Of a stretch of DNA of 64,000 bases, positions 1 through 31,278 are shown piece by piece. Source of the stretch: Alkalinema sp. FACHB-956 (GTDB lineage: Bacteria; Cyanobacteriota; Cyanobacteriia; Leptolyngbyales; Leptolyngbyaceae); assembly GCF_014697025.1 (NCBI RefSeq), contig NZ_JACJRC010000001.1, forward strand, positions 186,001-250,000, given 5' to 3'. The notes beneath the pieces are model-generated. The model worked only from the letters and a program-made list of their open reading frames with translations, did no database searches and was not told the origin of the DNA. Made by a program: the position numbers and the translations under genes. Position 1 is the stretch's first letter, and the number at the start of each line of letters is the position of its first letter.

Positions 1-596
1 TGATTAGTCCGAATCCGGGGGAGCCGTTGCAGCCGTTGACGGAAATTGCGTCCGGTGGGGAAATGAGTCGATTTTTGTTGGCGTTGCAGGCTTGTTTTTC
101 CCAGGTGGATGCGGTGGGGACGTTGGTGTTTGATGAGATTGATGCGGGGGTGTCGGGCCGGGTGGCGGGGGCGATCGCGCAGAAGTTACACCATCTCAGT
201 TTGCATCATCAGGTGTTGTGTGTGACGCACCAACCGATCGTGGCGGCGATGGCGGATCAGCATTTTCGGGTGAGTAAGCAGGTGATTGATCCGGAGAATG
301 CTGGGCAGCAGGCTAAGGATAACAGTAAGGTGGAGAATTTGCGAACGGTGGTGAGGATTCAGCCGTTGGATGAGGGGGAACGGCGGTTGGAGTTGGCGCA
401 GATTGCGAGTGGGGATGTGGTGCAGGCTGCGAATGGTTCAGCTAAGGCGGCGATCGATTTTGCGGAGTCGCTGTTGACTCAGGCGGCGAATATTCGGGAT
501 GGGCAGCAGGTGGAGGTGGTTGAAGTGGTATCGCAAACGGTGGTGAAGAAAGCGGGGAAACCGAAAAGAAAAGCTAATAAATCAAAGGTGGGTTAG
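1..596 (+). CDS. recN: DNA repair protein RecN, C-terminal part (5' end outside window)
   Basis: RecN is an SMC-like ATPase that acts early in recombinational repair of double-strand breaks. The reading frame is open from the left edge, so the N-terminal ATPase half and coiled coils are missing. What remains is the C-terminal nucleotide-binding lobe. The ABC signature EIASGGEMSRF is followed by the Walker B region LVFDEIDAGVSG and the switch histidine in CVTHQPIVAAMAD. The conserved domain ends near residue 140 of the visible part, and the last 45 residues are a basic, low-conservation tail (KKAGKPKRKANKSK). The last 140 bases of the gene and about 36 bases after the stop are repeated almost exactly 1410 bp downstream. 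The family call is secure. Confidence 0.95.
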   Translation, partial: ISPNPGEPLQPLTEIASGGEMSRFLLALQACFSQVDAVGTLVFDEIDAGVSGRVAGAIAQKLHHLSLHHQVLCVTHQPIVAAMADQHFRVSKQVIDPENAGQQAKDNSKVENLRTVVRIQPLDEGERRLELAQIASGDVVQAANGSAKAAIDFAESLLTQAANIRDGQQVEVVEVVSQTVVKKAGKPKRKANKSKVG

Positions 597-632
597 AAGG
601 GAGAGTGGAAGGGGCGATCGTAAAATCAACTA
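454..632 (+). repeat. Direct repeat, copy A (recN 3' tail)
   Basis: Bases 454-632 reappear at 1864-2042 in the same orientation with a constant 1410-bp offset. The coding part differs at one base (atcaaag/atcgaag), and a few changes follow the stop codon (gagagtggaa versus gattgtgtaa). Similarity fades just after base 632, where a hairpin begins. Confidence 0.9.
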
Positions 633-710
633 ACGGTTCGCGTCACCAGCCGTAGGCTGACTTTGCTGCTCACTATCATAGCTCATCGGTCTGGTGCACG
701 CGAATTGTTA
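631..710. other. Long imperfect hairpin resembling an integron attC site
   Basis: The left arm at 631-652 begins TAACGGTTCGCG and continues TCACCAGCCG. The right arm at 687-710 reads CGGTCTGGTGCACGCG then AATTGTTA. The arms pair with small asymmetric bulges (one unpaired T, an unpaired CA) and end in TAAC/GTTA, followed by TGC. Two paired boxes, extrahelical bases, and outer AAC/GTT cores are the architecture of integron recombination sites. The outer box GTTATGC departs from the GTTRRRY consensus at one position. No integron integrase gene is in the window. It could instead be an ordinary terminator-like hairpin after recN, but there is no T-tract. Confidence 0.4.
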
Positions 711-867: not shown

Positions 868-1233
868 TTATAAGTCCGGAAAAAGTCCGTGCACTTCTTC
901 AAGCAAAGTATTTGCAAAGTCTATAATTCGAGATATGCTTGAAGATTCCAGAGCATTAGGATCAGCCCAGAAACTTGACATTTTGTCACAATCTTGTGTT
1001 ATTGAATAATTAACTTTTCTATAAGCCTGAGCAGCGTCAGACCAAAGTCGAGAAAGATTGGCTTCATGCTCATAATCTCGATTGTTCATTCCCAAGCGCA
1101 CAATTTTACCAATATAAATTCTTGTTTCAGTTACAGCTTTTCGAATAATGGATGCTCGATCTTTGTCTGCGCTCTGAATTTTTGCCAAAGCTTCCTGAAT
1201 CTTATCTAAAACCTGAATAGCATCTTGAAGCAT
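868..1233 (-). CDS. Small helical hypothetical protein inside the recN-tail repeat
   Basis: This predicts a 121-residue soluble protein rich in Ala, Glu, Lys and Arg, with heptad-like spacing in its first 50 residues (IQVLDKIQEALAKIQ). I see no signal peptide, membrane segment or catalytic motif and do not recognise the family. The ATG at 1233 is preceded by only a weak purine stretch (AGTAAG). It lies alone, on the minus strand, between the two copies of the recN tail. It shares orientation with the large nuclease-STAND gene at 2213-7495 but is about 980 bp beyond that gene's 3' end, so an operon is unlikely. Base composition is AT-rich relative to recN, which fits acquired DNA. A small accessory or cassette-borne gene is the best description. 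Confidence 0.5.
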   Translation of the reverse strand: MLQDAIQVLDKIQEALAKIQSADKDRASIIRKAVTETRIYIGKIVRLGMNNRDYEHEANLSRLWSDAAQAYRKVNYSITQDCDKMSSFWADPNALESSSISRIIDFANTLLEEVHGLFPDL

Positions 1234-1863: not shown

Positions 1864-2006
1864 TCGATTTTGCGGAGTCGCTGTTGACTCAGGCGGCGAA
1901 TATTCGGGATGGGCAGCAGGTGGAGGTGGTTGAAGTGGTATCGCAAACGGTGGTGAAGAAAGCGGGGAAACCGAAAAGAAAAGCTAATAAATCGAAGGTG
2001 GGTTAG
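1864..2006 (+). pseudogene. Duplicated recN 3' fragment
   Basis: This fragment encodes the last 46 or so residues of RecN (from DFAESLLTQ to the KSKVG terminus) with an essentially unchanged sequence and stop codon. It is fused in frame to about 70 bases of unrelated upstream sequence, so it cannot make a functional RecN. The near-perfect identity to 454-596 implies a recent event. An open frame can be extended back to 1794, but nothing suggests it is translated. Confidence 0.85.
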
Positions 2007-2042
2007 AAGGGATTGTGTAAGGGGCGATCGTAAAGTCAACTA
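1864..2042 (+). repeat. Direct repeat, copy B (recN 3' tail)
   Basis: This is the second copy of 454-632. Immediately beyond it (2041-2120) is another hairpin-forming stretch: CACCGGAAGC at 2054-2063 pairs with GCGTTCCGGTG at 2098-2108 (one bulge), with an inner CGAGG-ca-CCTCG hairpin. Both repeat copies are therefore followed by a hairpin that starts CAACTA. Confidence 0.88.
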
Positions 2043-2212
2043 GCGACCAAGCTCACCGGAAGCAGACAACTTTTGTGACTCAGCGAGGCACCTCGTGGCG
2101 TTCCGGTGCGGGACTATGTCATCTTGCGCTCCCCACCCCCACCACGACCTGCTTCACACATAGAAAAAACTTCTACAGCAATAACTCTTACTTACAAAAC
2201 TAAAATTTAGAC

Positions 2213-5200
2213 TCACAATATTTTACGAGATCGAATAAGATGTTGTCGAAGATAATATGCTCTTGAGGAAGCGGTTTCGACTATTGCATTGAGCAGAACC
2301 AAACATGACTCATGCAAATTTCTTGATAAAAGTCCCACTTGATCGACCTGTAGAAAATGTTGAATGGCTCTTTCCAAATAGAACGCAGTATTTCTCCCCG
2401 AAAATAGACGAGTTCCGCCTTGTTCTCTCTGATGTTTAGAGAGAATGTGTATTCCTAGTTCAAAGAAGATTGAGCGAAAGTGATACATAAGTGAGGCTAA
2501 TGCTTCAAACACATCTGGATTATTTCCAGCATTTGTGACGAATTCAAGTAGCAAATCTTTCCCGAGTACAATGTCCTGATTCTCATAATCAACTTTTTGC
2601 CAACGCGTATGAGCACATAACATATTACGAATTAACTTTCGCATACTATCCTGATGCCTAGATCTTGATTCACTGGCAGCAAGACTGATAGCCAACTTTT
2701 GCAATTTCTGCGACAACTCTTTCCATAGTTGCCAGTAAACTTCCTTCTTATTTGCCCTTTCGGCAATAACAGCTACTTGCAAAGCTAAATAATCAATGAA
2801 TTCGGGTGCTATATCGCAACCTGTTATTAGGTATTCAAGGTAGGGTTGAAAATTCAAATCTTGTAGACAGAATATATGCTTTGCGAAACGTTCTATGAAA
2901 GCGAGTCGAATTTTATAATGGATCTCCAAGTTCTTATCTCTTTCAGAACTATAAGTATGTTCTTGCTGCTCGGATTCAAAAGAGAGATTCAGGATGTTAG
3001 ACAATAGTTTGATATGGCTAGATTCCCTTGACCCATCTGGTATCATCAAACATGGGCTTAAAAGATACCAATGGCTATAGGCTTGTAGAGTTATTTTTTC
3101 AAGTTCACCAGAAATCTCACCGTTTGCAAAGCGTTCACGAAATTCATCTTTCCTTTCTTGTAGCTTGGTAATCTCAGCCTCTTTATCAGCACCCTCTAGG
3201 CTATATATTCGTCTCTTTACAAATTGGTTATCTTGGTCTTGCTCAAAACGGGCATACTCAAGTGCCCCAATAATACATTTCTGTGCAAACTCAGAATCTC
3301 TTTTCCAAAGATGATTTCTGATACCCGCTGCTGCTTTATGCCGAACATTTTCATTAACGTGTGTTAGCGCAATAGCAATTAATTTTTTAACAATAAATTC
3401 CTCCTGTTTCTCAGAAACAAAATCCAATAAAATTGGAAGGATAGATGCCGCTGCCGCTGCACCATCATGATCAGTTGCATCAACAATTGCAGTTGAATTG
3501 TCTGAATCTGCATTCGCCATAACTGCTTGGATGATTAATTGAGCACACCACAAAACATCTTCTTTATTCAGTTCACTTGAATAGTCTCGTACAAAAACTG
3601 CTGCCGCCGTAACAATACCACCAAAGTACATTGCTGCTAGATTACTTACTGCACCAGCCTTAAGTTCTTCAAAAAGCTCTTTTGTCTCAGCAAGAGCTTC
3701 ATGCCACGTTGCGTAGTATTCAGTCTCTAGCGGCTCGTTTTTAAACGTTTTCCTTGACCATACACAAAGGGTAGAGAATCGGTTTTGAACCTGCATCATT
3801 TCTTGAGTTTGCTGCTGAATATCCTTTAAATCAGGTTCTAAGCCTTCAGGCTCGAAAATAATTCTGTTATTCTCTTGGTCTTCAACAGGCTTCCAGCCAC
3901 GACTGTCAATCCTATGCAAGAGGAATCGCATTGTTTCATCTTGAGGTTCAGATGCACGCAACAGATCAATTGCAGCAAGCGCCTCATCTCTCCATTCTGA
4001 AAACTGAAGGCGTACAACAAGCATTTCTAAATGCTCTTTTCGCCATGGACGCAGAGCGGCAGTACGCCGCTCTGCTGAATAAAGTTCAGAGAGTGGATCA
4101 AAACTAGAACGATGCCAATCAATTTCATTGCCGCCACATTCATGAATTGTTCGCTCTCGATCCATATGATACAACTCAGCAGTTCGTAGAAGTGGTAGCG
4201 CAGCTTTCCCAACTTTTAGAGAAAAACCTGTTGCTACAGAAGCTAAAACTGCTGTGGACATTACAGAATTACTACTTCTTAGAATATACTCAAACAGTAA
4301 CTCTATTTGATTTGCCTCAAAGTGCTCCACGTATGCAATTAGCCAATTTTCAAGAGCCATTAGGGCACACATTAACAAGGTAGGAACGTAAGAACCTAAA
4401 GAGCAATTACGATATGCAGTCCACAAACGGCTAGAGCAATATTGGCTTATTAGCGAACCATCATTTAGGTGTATATTAACTTGCTCAATAAGAGGCTCAG
4501 AATTTCTAATCCTTAAATAATGGGACTGCTCTGGAGTATCTAAAGTTGAATGCGCATACTTGTCCGCCGTTATATTCAGAAAATGAAGAATAAAGTCGAG
4601 TCCTTTTCTAGAATGGAAATCTAGTAAGCTTTTGAATGGTCCCTTTGCTCCGCTAGCTGGTGAAAAGCTATCATTATGCGCATGAAGTCCAAAGCAACCA
4701 GCAACATTTCTTCCATTTATGTGGCGAGACCCATTACTATTACTAGACTCTGTAACTAACCATTCAAAAAGTGCTAGTTTGATTAGTGTGTCTGGGTCGT
4801 ACTTGCAAAAGAAAGCGGCTTCAACTCCCTGAAAAGCCATTTTGCAAAACTCTTCAACATAATTTAGTCGGTGAGATCGCCTGAAATCGTCATCAGAATC
4901 ATCATCAAGAATAGGTTGCAAAAGCTCTTCTTGATTAGTTCCCATAGCTTGTAAACGTTCTTCTAGCTCTTTGTTCTTATTGACATCACTAGGTATAACT
5001 TCTTCCTGATCTGCCAAACTATCAGCTTGATCCGCAAAAACATCGGTGTTTAAAAGACTTAAGAAATCTTCATGTATCGCCGGAATGGTTTTTATGATGA
5101 TGCTGAGTAATTTCTTTCTGTCACCATTATCTCTGTAGGACTCCTTAAGAGGAGCTAAAAGGTGAAGAGCTAGTAACCCTGCTTCACGAGCTGGTAATGG

Positions 5201-7495
5201 TAGGTCTTCATTTAAATTTAATAGAGAAGACCAATTGTTTAAGACTGCTGTTACGTGTGGTATTAAATCCTCAAATAAAGAATCTCTGTTTTCAAATAGA
5301 AAACAAATTATGGCTTTCCATCCTTGACCATAGGGTCTAAGAAGTAAGGCATCAACTAAAGAGCTATCATCACTTTGTTTAAGTTTGGAAATAAATGTTG
5401 GATCTGGTGTTTGGCAAGCTATTCGCAGAATGAAGCAAAAACGTTTCAGAAGTTTTCCATCGTCTAAAAAAAGCCGATCCTTTAAGGAACTGAGGAATTT
5501 ATCTGGATTATCGCCTTGAAGTATCGCAGCAATAGTTTCATCCTGCCAATAGCTCTGGATATCTTGACTAGTAAGAACAAAGCTCACAAAATCATCAACA
5601 TTCTCGCCGCACCTTAACTTTTGATGAAGCCACAAGCGAAATGCACGGTTTATTGCGGGTTCATGACCGATTGCATCAAGGAAATCTTGTATTTTACCTG
5701 AATCTTTTCGATAAGCATCCTCAATATATTGGTCAAGCGCCCAGTCCTCTAGAACATCATGCGATGGACTAACAAGATCATTCGTGGAATCGCGACGAAC
5801 TAAGTTATCTTCTTCGAGCTTGAATACAGCATCACCATCGAAATCAGCTTCAGGAACTCCATAGACCATTTGCTTAGCTCGACTGACTGCGATATTGATG
5901 AAGGCTTGCTTTCGCTTAAGCGGCATTCCATTTGCTCGATCTTGTTCTTTAGCAATTACATTTTGCCAGACTGCAATGCGGAACTCCTTTTCACCATCCT
6001 GAGACGTAAATTCCGTTCCAGTTTGAAGAACTCTGTATGCTAAATCTGCAAAAAACGGCGATTTTAGCAATGGTTTCAACTTCGGATTTTCAGAAATTTT
6101 TTGCAAGGGTTCAAGTCGTCCGCATAGATTCTGAACTTGATCATTACTAAAACCGCTTAACGTAAGTGTTTTAAAGTTAACTCCAAAAGGCTGAAGATAG
6201 TTAAATGTTATTTGTTGATACGCATAGTCACGACCAGTAGCAATCACAGTCCAACCTTGATGCTTGCTCAGTAATTGAAGCAAATCTGTAAACGCTGTTG
6301 TTTTATCTAACTCAAGAAGCTTTTCAAGCGACTCGATAGTTAAGTACTTTTTGGGCATTAAAGCGAAGCCTGCTTCTATATCAGAAAGTGAACTTCTTAA
6401 GCCCATTGCTGAAAAAACATTGTTAAGATGAGACTGCTCTAAATCCTCAGTGCGTAGACAGAATATAGGAGATATAGGAGCACTTTTACTGATATAGTCT
6501 GAAAACTCTCGTATCAAGCTAGATTTTCCAGAACCACGCTCTCCGGAAACGAAAATGAAGCTAGAGGTTTCAGTCAAACCAAGCAGTTCAGAGAATATAT
6601 CCGGCTGCTCGATATGAAGTCCACCAATAGTAGTCCTTATACCACCTAAAATGTAATTACTATGTTCCTTGAGCTTAGTGATATCTGATGACCAACTGGA
6701 GAAACTAACAGTACTAAATGCAGTCCGAATACCTTCGGACAAAGTCTCTAAAGTGATTGTTCCTGCGGTTTGATTAAAGCCTTGAACCTCTTCAACAATA
6801 TTTTTCCACAAAGATGGTGCGGATTCATTTGAATATTGGGCAATTAGAGAATGAAGTAAGGATAATGTGCTCCCTGATTCTGTATCTAAATCGTAACCAA
6901 TGAGATGAAAGGCTTTTAAGAATTCCCAGAACTGCCCGTCAGAGACATCCATTTCACCATTAGCTGTCTTCAAATGCGTCTTGAACGCTTCCAACTTTTT
7001 CCTTTTTGCAGCACTACTAAAGTTGGAAGTATTAATTTTGGCAAAAAATTCTTCTTCATTTGCAGAGTGTCTTGCCCATTCCAGAATAGGTCGCACATCA
7101 TGTATGTCAGTTGCACTTAGAGGTCCTGTGATAAGAGCCAAAGCATCAGTACTAAGATTGAAACTTTCATCCTTAAAATCATTCCAGGTACTTTGGATGA
7201 CTTCTGCAAAGGTTTGATCTTTCGCTGTGATGCTCACATCGTGCTTGATTTGAGCTAGTAGCCTTGCTTCTCTATCTGTATCTGGCTGCTTGGCAAACAC
7301 GATAAAATCATCAGTATTAAAGCCTGCATAGCGTCCTTGAAGCTTGATTTTTGTAATTGGAAATGGTGGCAGGCATGGTGCCAGCCGACCCGACAGCATA
7401 AGAACGGTAAAGGCTGCTTGAACCCGTGTTTCAAAATTTACTCCACCGCCTCCCGTTGAAAAGGGGTTACTTTGCTGTTTTGCTGCTTCTGGCAT
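2213..7495 (-). CDS. Cap4-like nuclease fused to STAND-type NTPase (candidate antiphage protein)
   Basis: The protein has 1760 residues. Residues 1-100 match the pattern of PD-(D/E)XK nucleases of the Cap4/DUF4297 kind: GGGGVNFETRVQAAF (Glu22), then NTDDFIVF (Asp62/63), then LLAQIKHD (Gln82-x-Lys84). A P-loop follows at about 317-325 (VSGERGSGKSS), an ESLEKLLEL/TVIATGRD segment near 388-423, and an SPFFADLAYRVL helix near 479 of the kind seen in STAND/NACHT NTPases. The remaining 1200 residues are helical and repeat-like, as in sensor arms. The order nuclease-NTPase-long C-terminal sensor is the Avs design, in which phage protein binding drives oligomerisation and DNA cleavage. Assignment to that functional class is inference. 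The gene is AT-rich, monocistronic, and next to a rearranged recN end, all consistent with an acquired defence gene. The start ATG at 7495 places the nuclease motif near the N-terminus, as expected. Confidence 0.85.
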   Translation of the reverse strand: MPEAAKQQSNPFSTGGGGVNFETRVQAAFTVLMLSGRLAPCLPPFPITKIKLQGRYAGFNTDDFIVFAKQPDTDREARLLAQIKHDVSITAKDQTFAEVIQSTWNDFKDESFNLSTDALALITGPLSATDIHDVRPILEWARHSANEEEFFAKINTSNFSSAAKRKKLEAFKTHLKTANGEMDVSDGQFWEFLKAFHLIGYDLDTESGSTLSLLHSLIAQYSNESAPSLWKNIVEEVQGFNQTAGTITLETLSEGIRTAFSTVSFSSWSSDITKLKEHSNYILGGIRTTIGGLHIEQPDIFSELLGLTETSSFIFVSGERGSGKSSLIREFSDYISKSAPISPIFCLRTEDLEQSHLNNVFSAMGLRSSLSDIEAGFALMPKKYLTIESLEKLLELDKTTAFTDLLQLLSKHQGWTVIATGRDYAYQQITFNYLQPFGVNFKTLTLSGFSNDQVQNLCGRLEPLQKISENPKLKPLLKSPFFADLAYRVLQTGTEFTSQDGEKEFRIAVWQNVIAKEQDRANGMPLKRKQAFINIAVSRAKQMVYGVPEADFDGDAVFKLEEDNLVRRDSTNDLVSPSHDVLEDWALDQYIEDAYRKDSGKIQDFLDAIGHEPAINRAFRLWLHQKLRCGENVDDFVSFVLTSQDIQSYWQDETIAAILQGDNPDKFLSSLKDRLFLDDGKLLKRFCFILRIACQTPDPTFISKLKQSDDSSLVDALLLRPYGQGWKAIICFLFENRDSLFEDLIPHVTAVLNNWSSLLNLNEDLPLPAREAGLLALHLLAPLKESYRDNGDRKKLLSIIIKTIPAIHEDFLSLLNTDVFADQADSLADQEEVIPSDVNKNKELEERLQAMGTNQEELLQPILDDDSDDDFRRSHRLNYVEEFCKMAFQGVEAAFFCKYDPDTLIKLALFEWLVTESSNSNGSRHINGRNVAGCFGLHAHNDSFSPASGAKGPFKSLLDFHSRKGLDFILHFLNITADKYAHSTLDTPEQSHYLRIRNSEPLIEQVNIHLNDGSLISQYCSSRLWTAYRNCSLGSYVPTLLMCALMALENWLIAYVEHFEANQIELLFEYILRSSNSVMSTAVLASVATGFSLKVGKAALPLLRTAELYHMDRERTIHECGGNEIDWHRSSFDPLSELYSAERRTAALRPWRKEHLEMLVVRLQFSEWRDEALAAIDLLRASEPQDETMRFLLHRIDSRGWKPVEDQENNRIIFEPEGLEPDLKDIQQQTQEMMQVQNRFSTLCVWSRKTFKNEPLETEYYATWHEALAETKELFEELKAGAVSNLAAMYFGGIVTAAAVFVRDYSSELNKEDVLWCAQLIIQAVMANADSDNSTAIVDATDHDGAAAAASILPILLDFVSEKQEEFIVKKLIAIALTHVNENVRHKAAAGIRNHLWKRDSEFAQKCIIGALEYARFEQDQDNQFVKRRIYSLEGADKEAEITKLQERKDEFRERFANGEISGELEKITLQAYSHWYLLSPCLMIPDGSRESSHIKLLSNILNLSFESEQQEHTYSSERDKNLEIHYKIRLAFIERFAKHIFCLQDLNFQPYLEYLITGCDIAPEFIDYLALQVAVIAERANKKEVYWQLWKELSQKLQKLAISLAASESRSRHQDSMRKLIRNMLCAHTRWQKVDYENQDIVLGKDLLLEFVTNAGNNPDVFEALASLMYHFRSIFFELGIHILSKHQREQGGTRLFSGRNTAFYLERAIQHFLQVDQVGLLSRNLHESCLVLLNAIVETASSRAYYLRQHLIRSRKIL

Positions 7496-28740: not shown

Positions 28741-29427
28741 ATGATTATGGTTGCAGTGTCTTCGATCCAATCGCGACAATTGGTAGGTGAGCAGCGGGTC
28801 GTTTTTTACAACTTAAATTGGTCGGCCTATCAGCAAATTTTGCAAGCCTTGGGCGATCGGAGGGCGGCTCGACTGACTTACGATCGGGGAACGTTGGAAA
28901 TTAAGATGCCGCTGGAAGAACACGAGTTTTATAGTGAACTGATTGGACGGTTTATTTACTTTCTGGTAGCGGAAACGGGGCAAAAAATTAAAACGCTAGG
29001 ATCGACAACGCTGATGCGGGAGGATCTCGATCGGGGGGCGGAACCGGACAAAGCCTATTATATCCAGAATCAGGCTCAGGTGTCTGGGAAAACGGTGAAC
29101 CTCCAGCAAGATCCACCGCCGGATTTAGTGGTGGAAGTGGATATTACCCATACGGATCTGGATAAATTAGCCCTCTATGCTCAAATGGGAGTTCCGGAGT
29201 TTTGGCGATATGATGGGCAAGATTGGCGAATTTATCAACGCTGCGGGGAGCAATACCAAGAGGTGTCTACCAGTCCCACCTTTCCGTTTGTGCCTAAAAC
29301 AAAGTTGGATGAATTTCTAGCCCAAGCTCAAGTGGATGAAATTGCAGCAGAAAGAACGCTACGGGAATGGGTTCACCAAACACTTGAGATCATCAAAAAT
29401 GGAATTTCCCCTGATCATCTAGATTGA
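28741..29427 (+). CDS. Uma2 family (DUF820) putative endonuclease
   Basis: This predicts 228 residues. Uma2 proteins carry a restriction-endonuclease-like PD-(D/E)XK fold and are hugely expanded in cyanobacteria; their role is largely unproven. Here the family pattern is seen in the start ATG-ATT-ATG, ARLTYDRGTLEIKMPLEEHE, the acidic pair EPDKAYYIQNQ and the catalytic-strand PPDLVVEVDITHTD with LALYAQMGVPEFWRYD. The ATG at 28741 and the one two codons later cannot be separated by sequence. It is a single gene. It sits between a binding-protein gene and an AT-rich region. Confidence 0.93.
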   Translation: MIMVAVSSIQSRQLVGEQRVVFYNLNWSAYQQILQALGDRRAARLTYDRGTLEIKMPLEEHEFYSELIGRFIYFLVAETGQKIKTLGSTTLMREDLDRGAEPDKAYYIQNQAQVSGKTVNLQQDPPPDLVVEVDITHTDLDKLALYAQMGVPEFWRYDGQDWRIYQRCGEQYQEVSTSPTFPFVPKTKLDEFLAQAQVDEIAAERTLREWVHQTLEIIKNGISPDHLD

Positions 29428-30264: not shown

Positions 30265-31278
30265 ATGGGAAAGTGTAACATTACGGATAAAGAACTAGCA
30301 GGTGCACTAGATATCTCAGTAGGAAGGTTAACTGATATTTGCGACTTCTTCGATGCCGATCCAAATGATGATTGGGTTTTAATCACGGGTATTCACTTTG
30401 AGTGGGGGCCTTATGGTTCGAGAGTCTTTAGTGCAGAGGGCGCAGTTGAGATTTGTAATTATCTAGAAGAGAACCAGAAAGAGCGTCCTTTACTTCAGCG
30501 ATGGAAGCGTTGGTTATTACAGCGTGATCGCAGACTCAAAGGTCTGATGGTTGCAAAACATGTTCAGGAAATCAGCCAACTGAAAGGACAAATTATTTTC
30601 AGAAATGGTAGAGCATTTCTAGGCCCCAGAGCTTGTCGAGAAGTGCTTGGACTGGGAAAACGCCAAGATATCCTCAACAGAACTTTCCAAGAGATTCAGC
30701 GTTCTGAAAATATAGAGATTGAACCACTAAAAATCGATATTGACTTTTTCATACATGAGGCAAATTCACAGTATTTTAGTCAATCTGGTCTAGCGTCAGT
30801 TAGTAAACATTTAGGAAAGCGTCTAACTCAAAAGCATCGACAGGAATGGGCAAAAGTTGTTGCTGATTATGCACCTCCAGCTTTGGAAGCAATTGAGAAA
30901 CATGAAGCTGATCGAGCCAAGCGGATCAAACGGGCTATGGATCGTGTTAGATCATATGCTAAAGGACGTTGTCAACTAACTAATCGTCGTCAATCAGTAG
31001 AAAAATTTGATCTAGAGGTTCATCATTTATTTGATAAAAATACTTACCCTCATCTCGCTGACATGGAAGCAAATCTCATCGCTATTGCTTCTGATATCCA
31101 CACCCATTTTCATAAATGGATGGGGGGAAGCCATGTTACATGCACCATAGAAGATATGGAGCGATATATTGAGGAATTCGGCAATTCTCTTTTTTCTGAA
31201 GAAAATGTAGATCAAGCAACAAAGGTAGCCATTATATTATCCAATTCAAAAAGAATACTTAAGCCACTAGTTGAGTAG
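30265..31278 (+). CDS. HNH nuclease-domain protein paired with J-domain protein
   Basis: This predicts 337 residues. The N-terminal third (DKELAGALDISVGRLTDICDFF) looks like a helix-turn-helix or DNA-binding segment. The C-terminal third has an HNH/betabetaalpha-metal layout: GRCQLTN, then LEVHHLFDK (His253/His254), then Asn270 in EANLIAIASD and His279/His281/His283 in IHTHFHKW. In many HNH proteins the first pair of histidines and the Asn-His follow exactly this order. It is the second gene of the J-domain operon. A DNA-cleaving effector paired with a DnaK co-chaperone is not a combination I can name; it could be a defence or mobile-element module. Confidence 0.78.
   Translation: MGKCNITDKELAGALDISVGRLTDICDFFDADPNDDWVLITGIHFEWGPYGSRVFSAEGAVEICNYLEENQKERPLLQRWKRWLLQRDRRLKGLMVAKHVQEISQLKGQIIFRNGRAFLGPRACREVLGLGKRQDILNRTFQEIQRSENIEIEPLKIDIDFFIHEANSQYFSQSGLASVSKHLGKRLTQKHRQEWAKVVADYAPPALEAIEKHEADRAKRIKRAMDRVRSYAKGRCQLTNRRQSVEKFDLEVHHLFDKNTYPHLADMEANLIAIASDIHTHFHKWMGGSHVTCTIEDMERYIEEFGNSLFSEENVDQATKVAIILSNSKRILKPLVE

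Follow-up and report, generated by a model that had tools for sequence, protein, structure and literature searches.

In the available text of published studies, Avs4 is described as recognising the phage portal and Avs1-3 the terminase (PMC12724215), the nucleases of Avs1-4 as cutting both phage and host genomes (PMC12931631), and Avs3 as being activated by dimerisation of its nuclease through the STAND part (PMC12198126). The gene studied here, in a window of 64,000 nucleotides (the whole stretch of DNA that was analysed) from the cyanobacterium Alkalinema sp. FACHB-956, encodes effector, STAND NTPase and sensor in one chain, which is the Avs layout. A first-pass annotation had taken it for a Cap4-like nuclease-STAND fusion and candidate Avs-type antiphage gene, perhaps of an undescribed subtype. 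Structure prediction and fold matches agree that the protein is of the Avs type, its antiphage activity being the presumed consequence. It is ordinary in kind, an Avs-type immune protein, and unusual in combination: judged by sequence and fold matches, a Cap4-type effector replaces the EcAvs4-type N-terminus on an Avs4-type sensor.

Table 1. Features of the gene and its flanks, in window positions, with the evidence for each
Feature	Positions	Strand	Evidence
Nuclease-STAND-sensor fusion, whole gene	2213..7495	-	1760 aa; 30 of 45 related loci >1600 residues with the same architecture
PD-(D/E)XK nuclease of the Cap4/DUF4297/LmuA/Avs3 fold group, residues 1-262	6710..7495	-	AlphaFold2, Foldseek, VIA
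E22, invariant	7430..7432	-	39 aligned N-termini
D62-D63, invariant	7307..7312	-	39 aligned N-termini
Q82-I83-K84, QxK motif (Q82, K84 invariant)	7244..7252	-	39 aligned N-termini
Linker, residues 263-300, largely helical in model	6596..6709	-	AlphaFold2 model
STAND NTPase core and winged-helix part, residues 301-760	5216..6595	-	PDB 8dgf, 146 bits over 310-765; fold match
Walker A GERGSGKS, residues 318-325	6521..6544	-	Motif and alignment
H579-D580, invariant HD pair	5756..5761	-	STAND and sensor alignment (model H302, D303)
Avs4-type helical sensor, residues 761-1760	2216..5215	-	PADLOC, NCBIfam, PDB 8dgf
Divergent sensor segment, residues 881-1040, candidate target-specificity cassette	4376..4855	-	Pairwise comparisons
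recN 3' end, copy 1 (flanking, outside gene)	454..635	+	182 bp
recN 3' end, copy 2 (flanking)	1864..2045	+	97% identical to copy 1; gene 3' end about 170 bp away

Nuclease, STAND core and sensor

The first-pass annotation had found no repeat that it could name in the C-terminal 1200 residues, and here it was mistaken, as PADLOC, NCBIfam, the PDB and a fold match all identify an Avs4-type sensor. The comparison with Avs profiles that it had proposed gives Avs4 at 4.4e-177 as the sole Avs model among the four PADLOC matches of the protein, the best stretch running from residue 859 to 1753 on profile positions 686-1569, and PADLOC yields no Avs3 match at E<=10. In the PDB the sequence matches EcAvs4 (8dgf) at 1.2e-69, the second matching stretch (920-1753) scoring 96 bits and the sensors being about 25% identical. 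With the NCBIfam Avs4 model NF041815 the protein scores 683.4 bits, under the curated equivalog cut-off of 1500, and the relatives L070, L048, L055 and L078 score 580-675 bits, whereas EcAvs4 itself (L039) reaches 2054 over the whole model.

The annotation had staked its reading on a Cap4-like PD-(D/E)XK fold and on a STAND NTPase core, and structure prediction finds both. The model of residues 278-1477 (pLDDT 80.8, pTM 0.62, low at model positions 547-596 and in shorter stretches) is mostly helical, as had been said of the C-terminus, and its top match is the complex of Avs4 with the phage portal (Foldseek 6.2e-44; Z 32.5 over 1038 aligned residues), with an overall rmsd to 8dgf of 15, so that parts are placed differently in the model and in 8dgf. 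The next fold matches are the animal NLRs NLRP9, NLRP3 and NLRC4, at Z 19.6 and below. The P-loop that had been noticed lies at residues 318-325, and G318, G321 and K324 (model numbering plus 277) are invariant in 31 aligned STAND and sensor regions; Pfam AAA_16 matches at 6.3e-6, below the Pfam cut-off, and the invariant HD pair presumably sits in the winged-helix part, as in other STAND proteins. The STAND core and the sensor are homologous to those of EcAvs4.

The N-terminal motifs FE, TDD and QxK seen earlier are located at F21-E22, T61-D62-D63 and Q82-I83-K84, and E22, D62, D63, Q82 and K84 are invariant, together with S13, G15, G18, Q53 and eleven more columns, in 39 aligned N-termini (the window protein and 38 of the 45 related loci, leaving out L042, L044, L058, L060, the partial L076, L081 and L085). 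The AlphaFold2 model of residues 1-288 (pLDDT 87.2, pTM 0.81) has a helix followed by three strands, another helix and one more strand, which is the order of a PD-(D/E)XK nuclease. Foldseek matches it to LmuA (3.7e-6), Cap4 (9.0e-5), Hachiman (5.6e-4) and Avs3 (9.9e-4), with a query-normalised TM-score of at most 0.48 among matches at E<=0.001, and VIA-align places Avs3 (PDB 8dgc) on top with Z 14.1 (rmsd 3.9, 211 aligned residues), ahead of LmuA (13.8), HerA-DUF4297 (13.3), Cap4 (12.9) and Hachiman (10.8), restriction enzymes staying at 6.3 or below.

Sequence searches gave no such relatives. Pfam has no match in residues 1-313 of the window protein, its Cap4 family (PF14130) matches none of 30 family members at E<=1 and nothing in the genome of the window at E<=0.001, no Pfam family was matched by more than 3 of the 30 members in the scans of the nuclease (best E 0.001), and searching PDB sequences with a profile of the nuclease returned one match, at E 0.59. 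As only the fold search found relatives of the nuclease, its link to Cap4 is one of fold: in the predicted model, the nuclease core is alike in structure to Cap4. The catalytic Asp and the (E/Q)xK motif are kept, and by analogy D63 is likely the metal-binding Asp. In the available text of PMC10732053, Cap4 has D50, E67 and K69, AbpA has D45, and AbpA Q58 and K60 occupy the places of Cap4 E67 and K69, defence being lost in AbpA with Q58A or K60A; Cap4 D50 and AbpA D45 are the residues to set beside D63.

The match to EcAvs4 begins at about residue 310, and the first 300 or so residues are unlike the N-terminal 200 of EcAvs4 in sequence; hhalign gives a probability of 0.8% for the nuclease family of the window against the latter. 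The NCBIfam Avs4 model is matched from position 161 for the window protein and from 142-170 for L070, L048, L055 and L078. Pfam names no domain at the N-terminus of EcAvs4, which I take to be an Mrr-like nuclease, and no sequence or profile match to a nuclease of the EcAvs4 kind was seen in the window protein. Because the Avs4 match lies only past the N-terminus, an Avs4-type core and sensor are taken to carry another effector. The protein would thus work like Avs4 and not be filed as Avs4, given that it scores under the NF041815 cut-off and that its N-terminus is not of the EcAvs4 kind by sequence or profile. Of the undescribed subtype that had been suggested, a narrower version stands, namely a Cap4-type effector on an Avs4-type sensor, but not its premise of a C-terminus without a name. 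A literature search over titles and the openings of abstracts, with the founding Avs studies outside its reach, did not find this combination of nuclease and sensor.

Exchange of modules and a divergent sensor segment

Effectors differ among the relatives of this protein. The N-termini of Avs4-like proteins in related cyanobacterial genomes are of the TIR (L007, 5.1e-24), caspase (L010, 1.2e-13) and nucleoside phosphorylase type (L011, 2.2e-14), and a tree of STAND regions pairs L083, which bears the nuclease, with L010, which bears a caspase, as sisters (100/99) with short branches, a clear case of different effectors on the same core. Over all rows of that tree, in which the long rows L095, L011, G437 and HALcap4 are placed with little certainty, the effector label shows no clustering beyond that of shuffled labels (158 of 500 shuffles gave a value as low).

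The nuclease in turn is also found on other STAND cores, and its similarity to the window protein stops near residues 261-265 in L054, L062 and L066. In L062 (699-4223), L066 (540-4073) and L092 (5001-8561) it is joined to a C-terminus of about 910 residues that has no P-loop and no Pfam or PADLOC match, the three being 39-43% identical to each other in distant hosts, and L076 is a shorter relative. L092 belongs to a conjugative plasmid of Shewanella, where it follows genes whose annotations read Abi family and super-infection exclusion protein B. The nuclease with this STAND-less partner is a candidate for a defence protein that has yet to receive a name. Taken alone, the nuclease has matches in 14 plasmid records. 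Elsewhere, at L054 (6973-9108), a nuclease 62% identical to that of the window is followed by another C-terminus of about 450 residues, without a match to the rest.

The gene is under purifying selection, with a whole-gene dN/dS of 0.16-0.26 between the window and four cyanobacterial copies. One segment of the sensor, residues 881-1040, has diverged far more than its surroundings: amino acid identity of the window protein to L058 is 57% there vs 90% (301-760) and 78% (1061-1440), and to L041 56% vs 87% and 85%, whereas L041 and L058 are 88% identical to each other within it. Per bin of 80 codons, nucleotide identity to L058 and L041 is 0.57-0.69 in the segment and 0.76-0.98 elsewhere, and at 4-fold sites in the segment (15-20 sites per bin) it is 0.35-0.47. 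The lowest of 161 sliding windows of 160 residues starts at 911 in both pairs (54% and 52%, against medians of 84% and 83%). For 961-1040 the copy closest to the window is that of the Nitrospirales L047 (60% vs 51% for L058), and for all of 881-1040 the closest are still L058, L043 and L041 (57-56%). The likeness of L041 and L058, together with L047 being closest for 961-1040, fits replacement by recombination, and I propose that the segment may be a swapped cassette that sets target specificity.

Against a cassette speak these nearest copies for the whole of 881-1040 and part of what other clades show. Within the gamma clade, identity along the protein is lowest at 981-1020 (56%), and the broad cyanobacterial dip at 801-1040 does not recur there; in the Hymenobacter group 981-1020 is also low (55%), with 821-880, a region of insertions and deletions, lower still (43-44%). 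Two divergent E. coli Avs4 lineages have a low point within the stretch equivalent to the segment, which is about 720-862 in EcAvs4 (Ec 801-840, 23%). Other stretches reach as far down or further (Ec 1281-1320, 12%), so that these lineages support a cassette weakly at best.

Distribution and surroundings of the gene

When the GTDB species genomes were scanned with an alignment of four sequences, 45 of 130 pattern matches proved to be related loci. The 30 encoding more than 1600 residues all have BLAST matches to the nuclease, STAND and C-terminal parts of the window protein, the last being only partial in L078, L079, L080 and L082. According to record titles, the bacterial hosts are Cyanobacteria, Nitrospirales, Bacillota, delta-type sulfate and iron reducers, Acidobacteria, Gammaproteobacteria and Hymenobacter, and the archaeal ones Methanoregula and Methanoperedens. 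The Nitrospirales copy L047 is 69, 69 and 56% identical to the window protein in these three parts, and a cut-short copy in the cyanobacterium Xenococcus (L045) 71, 65 and 44%; the likeness of L047 is consistent with transfer between phyla. Among 194 related genomes, 5 (the window's own included) match at E<=0.001, of which that of the window and G192, apparently the genome of L058, have the full length and three have weaker or partial matches. Of 386 genomes of the phylum searched for the Avs4 family, 58 have matches at E<=0.001; no match exceeds the curated cut-off, and most of those listed reach no further than the beginning of the STAND core. The homologues L042, L045, L060, L061 and L064 are truncated within their contigs, which points to decay in places. 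Nothing resembling the opening 4000 bases of the Raoultella copy turned up in the E. coli genomes of the collection.

The reading frame (7495-2213) holds 1760 codons and a stop, with no internal stops; by eye, only a weak purine-rich stretch precedes the start codon, and the corresponding methionine is the start in many homologues. As had been remarked, the gene is AT-rich, with 39.7% GC (GC3 30%) vs 49.0% in the rest of the window (GC3 of leuS 65%), and its GC is also below that of the flanks in 23 of 29 loci (the 30 without L055). The rearranged neighbourhood that had been noted as well is borne out in part, by the 182-bp duplication of the recN end and in that no RecN end was found in 9 relatives, where about 5-10 kb each were read on the far side of leuS; both gene names were assigned by eye from sequence. 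This repeat beside the avs gene may be the remnant of an integrated element. The direct repeat encloses an orphan ORF of 121 amino acids (868-1233, minus strand), which I considered as a partner gene and rejected: it has no significant family and matches neither plasmids nor any of the 96 other genomes in a set of 97.

Nine of the ten window ORFs around the gene, up to position 31278, have no PADLOC match at E<=0.001. The tenth, an ORF of 228 amino acids (28741-29427, plus strand) 21 kb from the gene, matches the candidate model PDC-S17 (3.4e-38), and with this single match to a candidate model at such a distance the gene lies outside any evident defence island. None of the families of flanking ORFs common to at least 3 loci (BLAST E 1e-6, half-length overlap) has a cyanobacterial copy. 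A phage-borne gene is not supported, the phage collection giving no match at 1e-5 and none of the 61 pattern matches from viral contigs being confirmed. As for other loci, three consecutive long ORFs, recombinases by eye, lie upstream in L061, L064, L073 and L074, in six loci (these four, L069 and L070) a small ORF stops 0-16 nt short of the avs gene, and an SSB-like ORF (by eye) lies further upstream in three.

Proposed function and relation to known systems

By analogy to described Avs proteins, the gene very probably encodes a single-protein, NLR-like defence in which a phage protein acts through the STAND part on the nuclease. In an infected cell the helical region of about residues 761-1760 would bind a phage protein, the portal being the most probable one, as in EcAvs4, upon which the STAND core (301-760) would bind ATP and oligomerise, and the Cap4-type nuclease domains (1-262) would be brought together and cleave double-stranded DNA, the cell being killed or arrested before phage release (abortive infection). 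Segment 881-1040 would set the target range and be exchanged by recombination. Portal trigger, oligomerisation, cleavage of double-stranded DNA and abortive infection are all carried over from known systems, and I consider the portal a fairly likely trigger.

Not all alternatives exclude such an Avs-type scheme. With a sensor only about 25% identical to that of EcAvs4, the target may have changed, and the same architecture could respond to another phage protein, the terminase or an unrelated early protein, through a sensor diverged from Avs4. Apart from this low identity and the divergent segment, the available text of two studies fits such a change, as Ksap1 triggers Avs2 (PMC12931631, PMC12724215) and JADA triggers Avs5 (PMC12931631). 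However, the STAND and sensor model aligns over 1038 residues with the structure of Avs4 and the portal, and PADLOC offers no Avs model besides Avs4, so that I regard another trigger as rather unlikely. The nuclease could instead cut RNA or a specific DNA site, or only nick DNA, given the Gln in place of the usual acidic residue of (D/E)xK and a sequence outside the Pfam Cap4 family. However, defence-system nucleases of the DNA-cutting Cap4 kind make up its leading fold matches as far as Z 10.7. QxK is found in AbpA too, which depends on Q58 and K60 for defence according to the available text of PMC10732053, and this alternative seems improbable. Cut-short copies elsewhere and full length in only 2 of 194 related genomes might finally indicate a decaying or domesticated remnant without immune function, but the complete frame of 1760 amino acids, the low dN/dS and the kept catalytic and P-loop residues make this very hard to believe. 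An Avs-type protein, triggered by the portal and cutting double-stranded DNA, is the reading I prefer.

The protein is an example of how NLR-like receptors of bacteria exchange their effector and sensor halves across families. One such combination has reached many bacterial phyla and some archaea, with the laboratory-tractable genera Aliivibrio and Pseudomonas among its hosts. The sharply bounded divergent segment is a testable place for the target specificity of Avs sensors, and the nuclease with the STAND-less partner is a concrete lead to a defence gene without a name. Tentatively, and as a possibility I would not yet bet on, the proteins may form a distinct bacterial and archaeal lineage of NLR-like receptors that couple a Cap4-type nuclease from a separate sequence family to an Avs4-type sensor, the recombining cassette 881-1040 setting the target range and the nuclease being a mobile effector module that also serves other STAND cores and, in L062, L066 and L092, the partner of about 910 residues, an undescribed defence protein.

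Among known systems, the nuclease group of Cap4, DUF4297 and LmuA shares the PD-(D/E)XK fold (Z 12.9-13.8), but the nuclease of the window lies outside PF14130 and no SAVED domain is named in the protein; HerA and LmuB/C are the partners of other nucleases in this group. Avs3 (8dgc) has a nuclease of the same fold at the same N-terminal place on a STAND protein, at a Z tied with those of LmuA and HerA-DUF4297, but the nucleases are 13% identical and no Avs3 model is among the PADLOC matches. The QxK motif is shared with AbpA, going by the available text of PMC10732053. The closest likeness in STAND core and C-terminal sensor is to Avs4 (AVAST type 4; EcAvs4, 8dgf), which differs in the sequence of the first 300 or so residues and in the NCBIfam score (683 vs 2054). 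A protein on the Haliscomenobacter plasmid pHALHY01 (L091, 3107-8074) likewise has an Avs4-type sensor (5.4e-157) and a Cap4/LmuA-type nuclease, which matches an N-terminal stretch of Avs2 (8.9e-24) and LmuA (4.1e-21). However, this nuclease, as a single sequence, gives no alignment with the family profile of the window (0.4%), and judged from these comparisons L091 is apparently a separate, independent pairing of a Cap4-type nuclease with Avs4.
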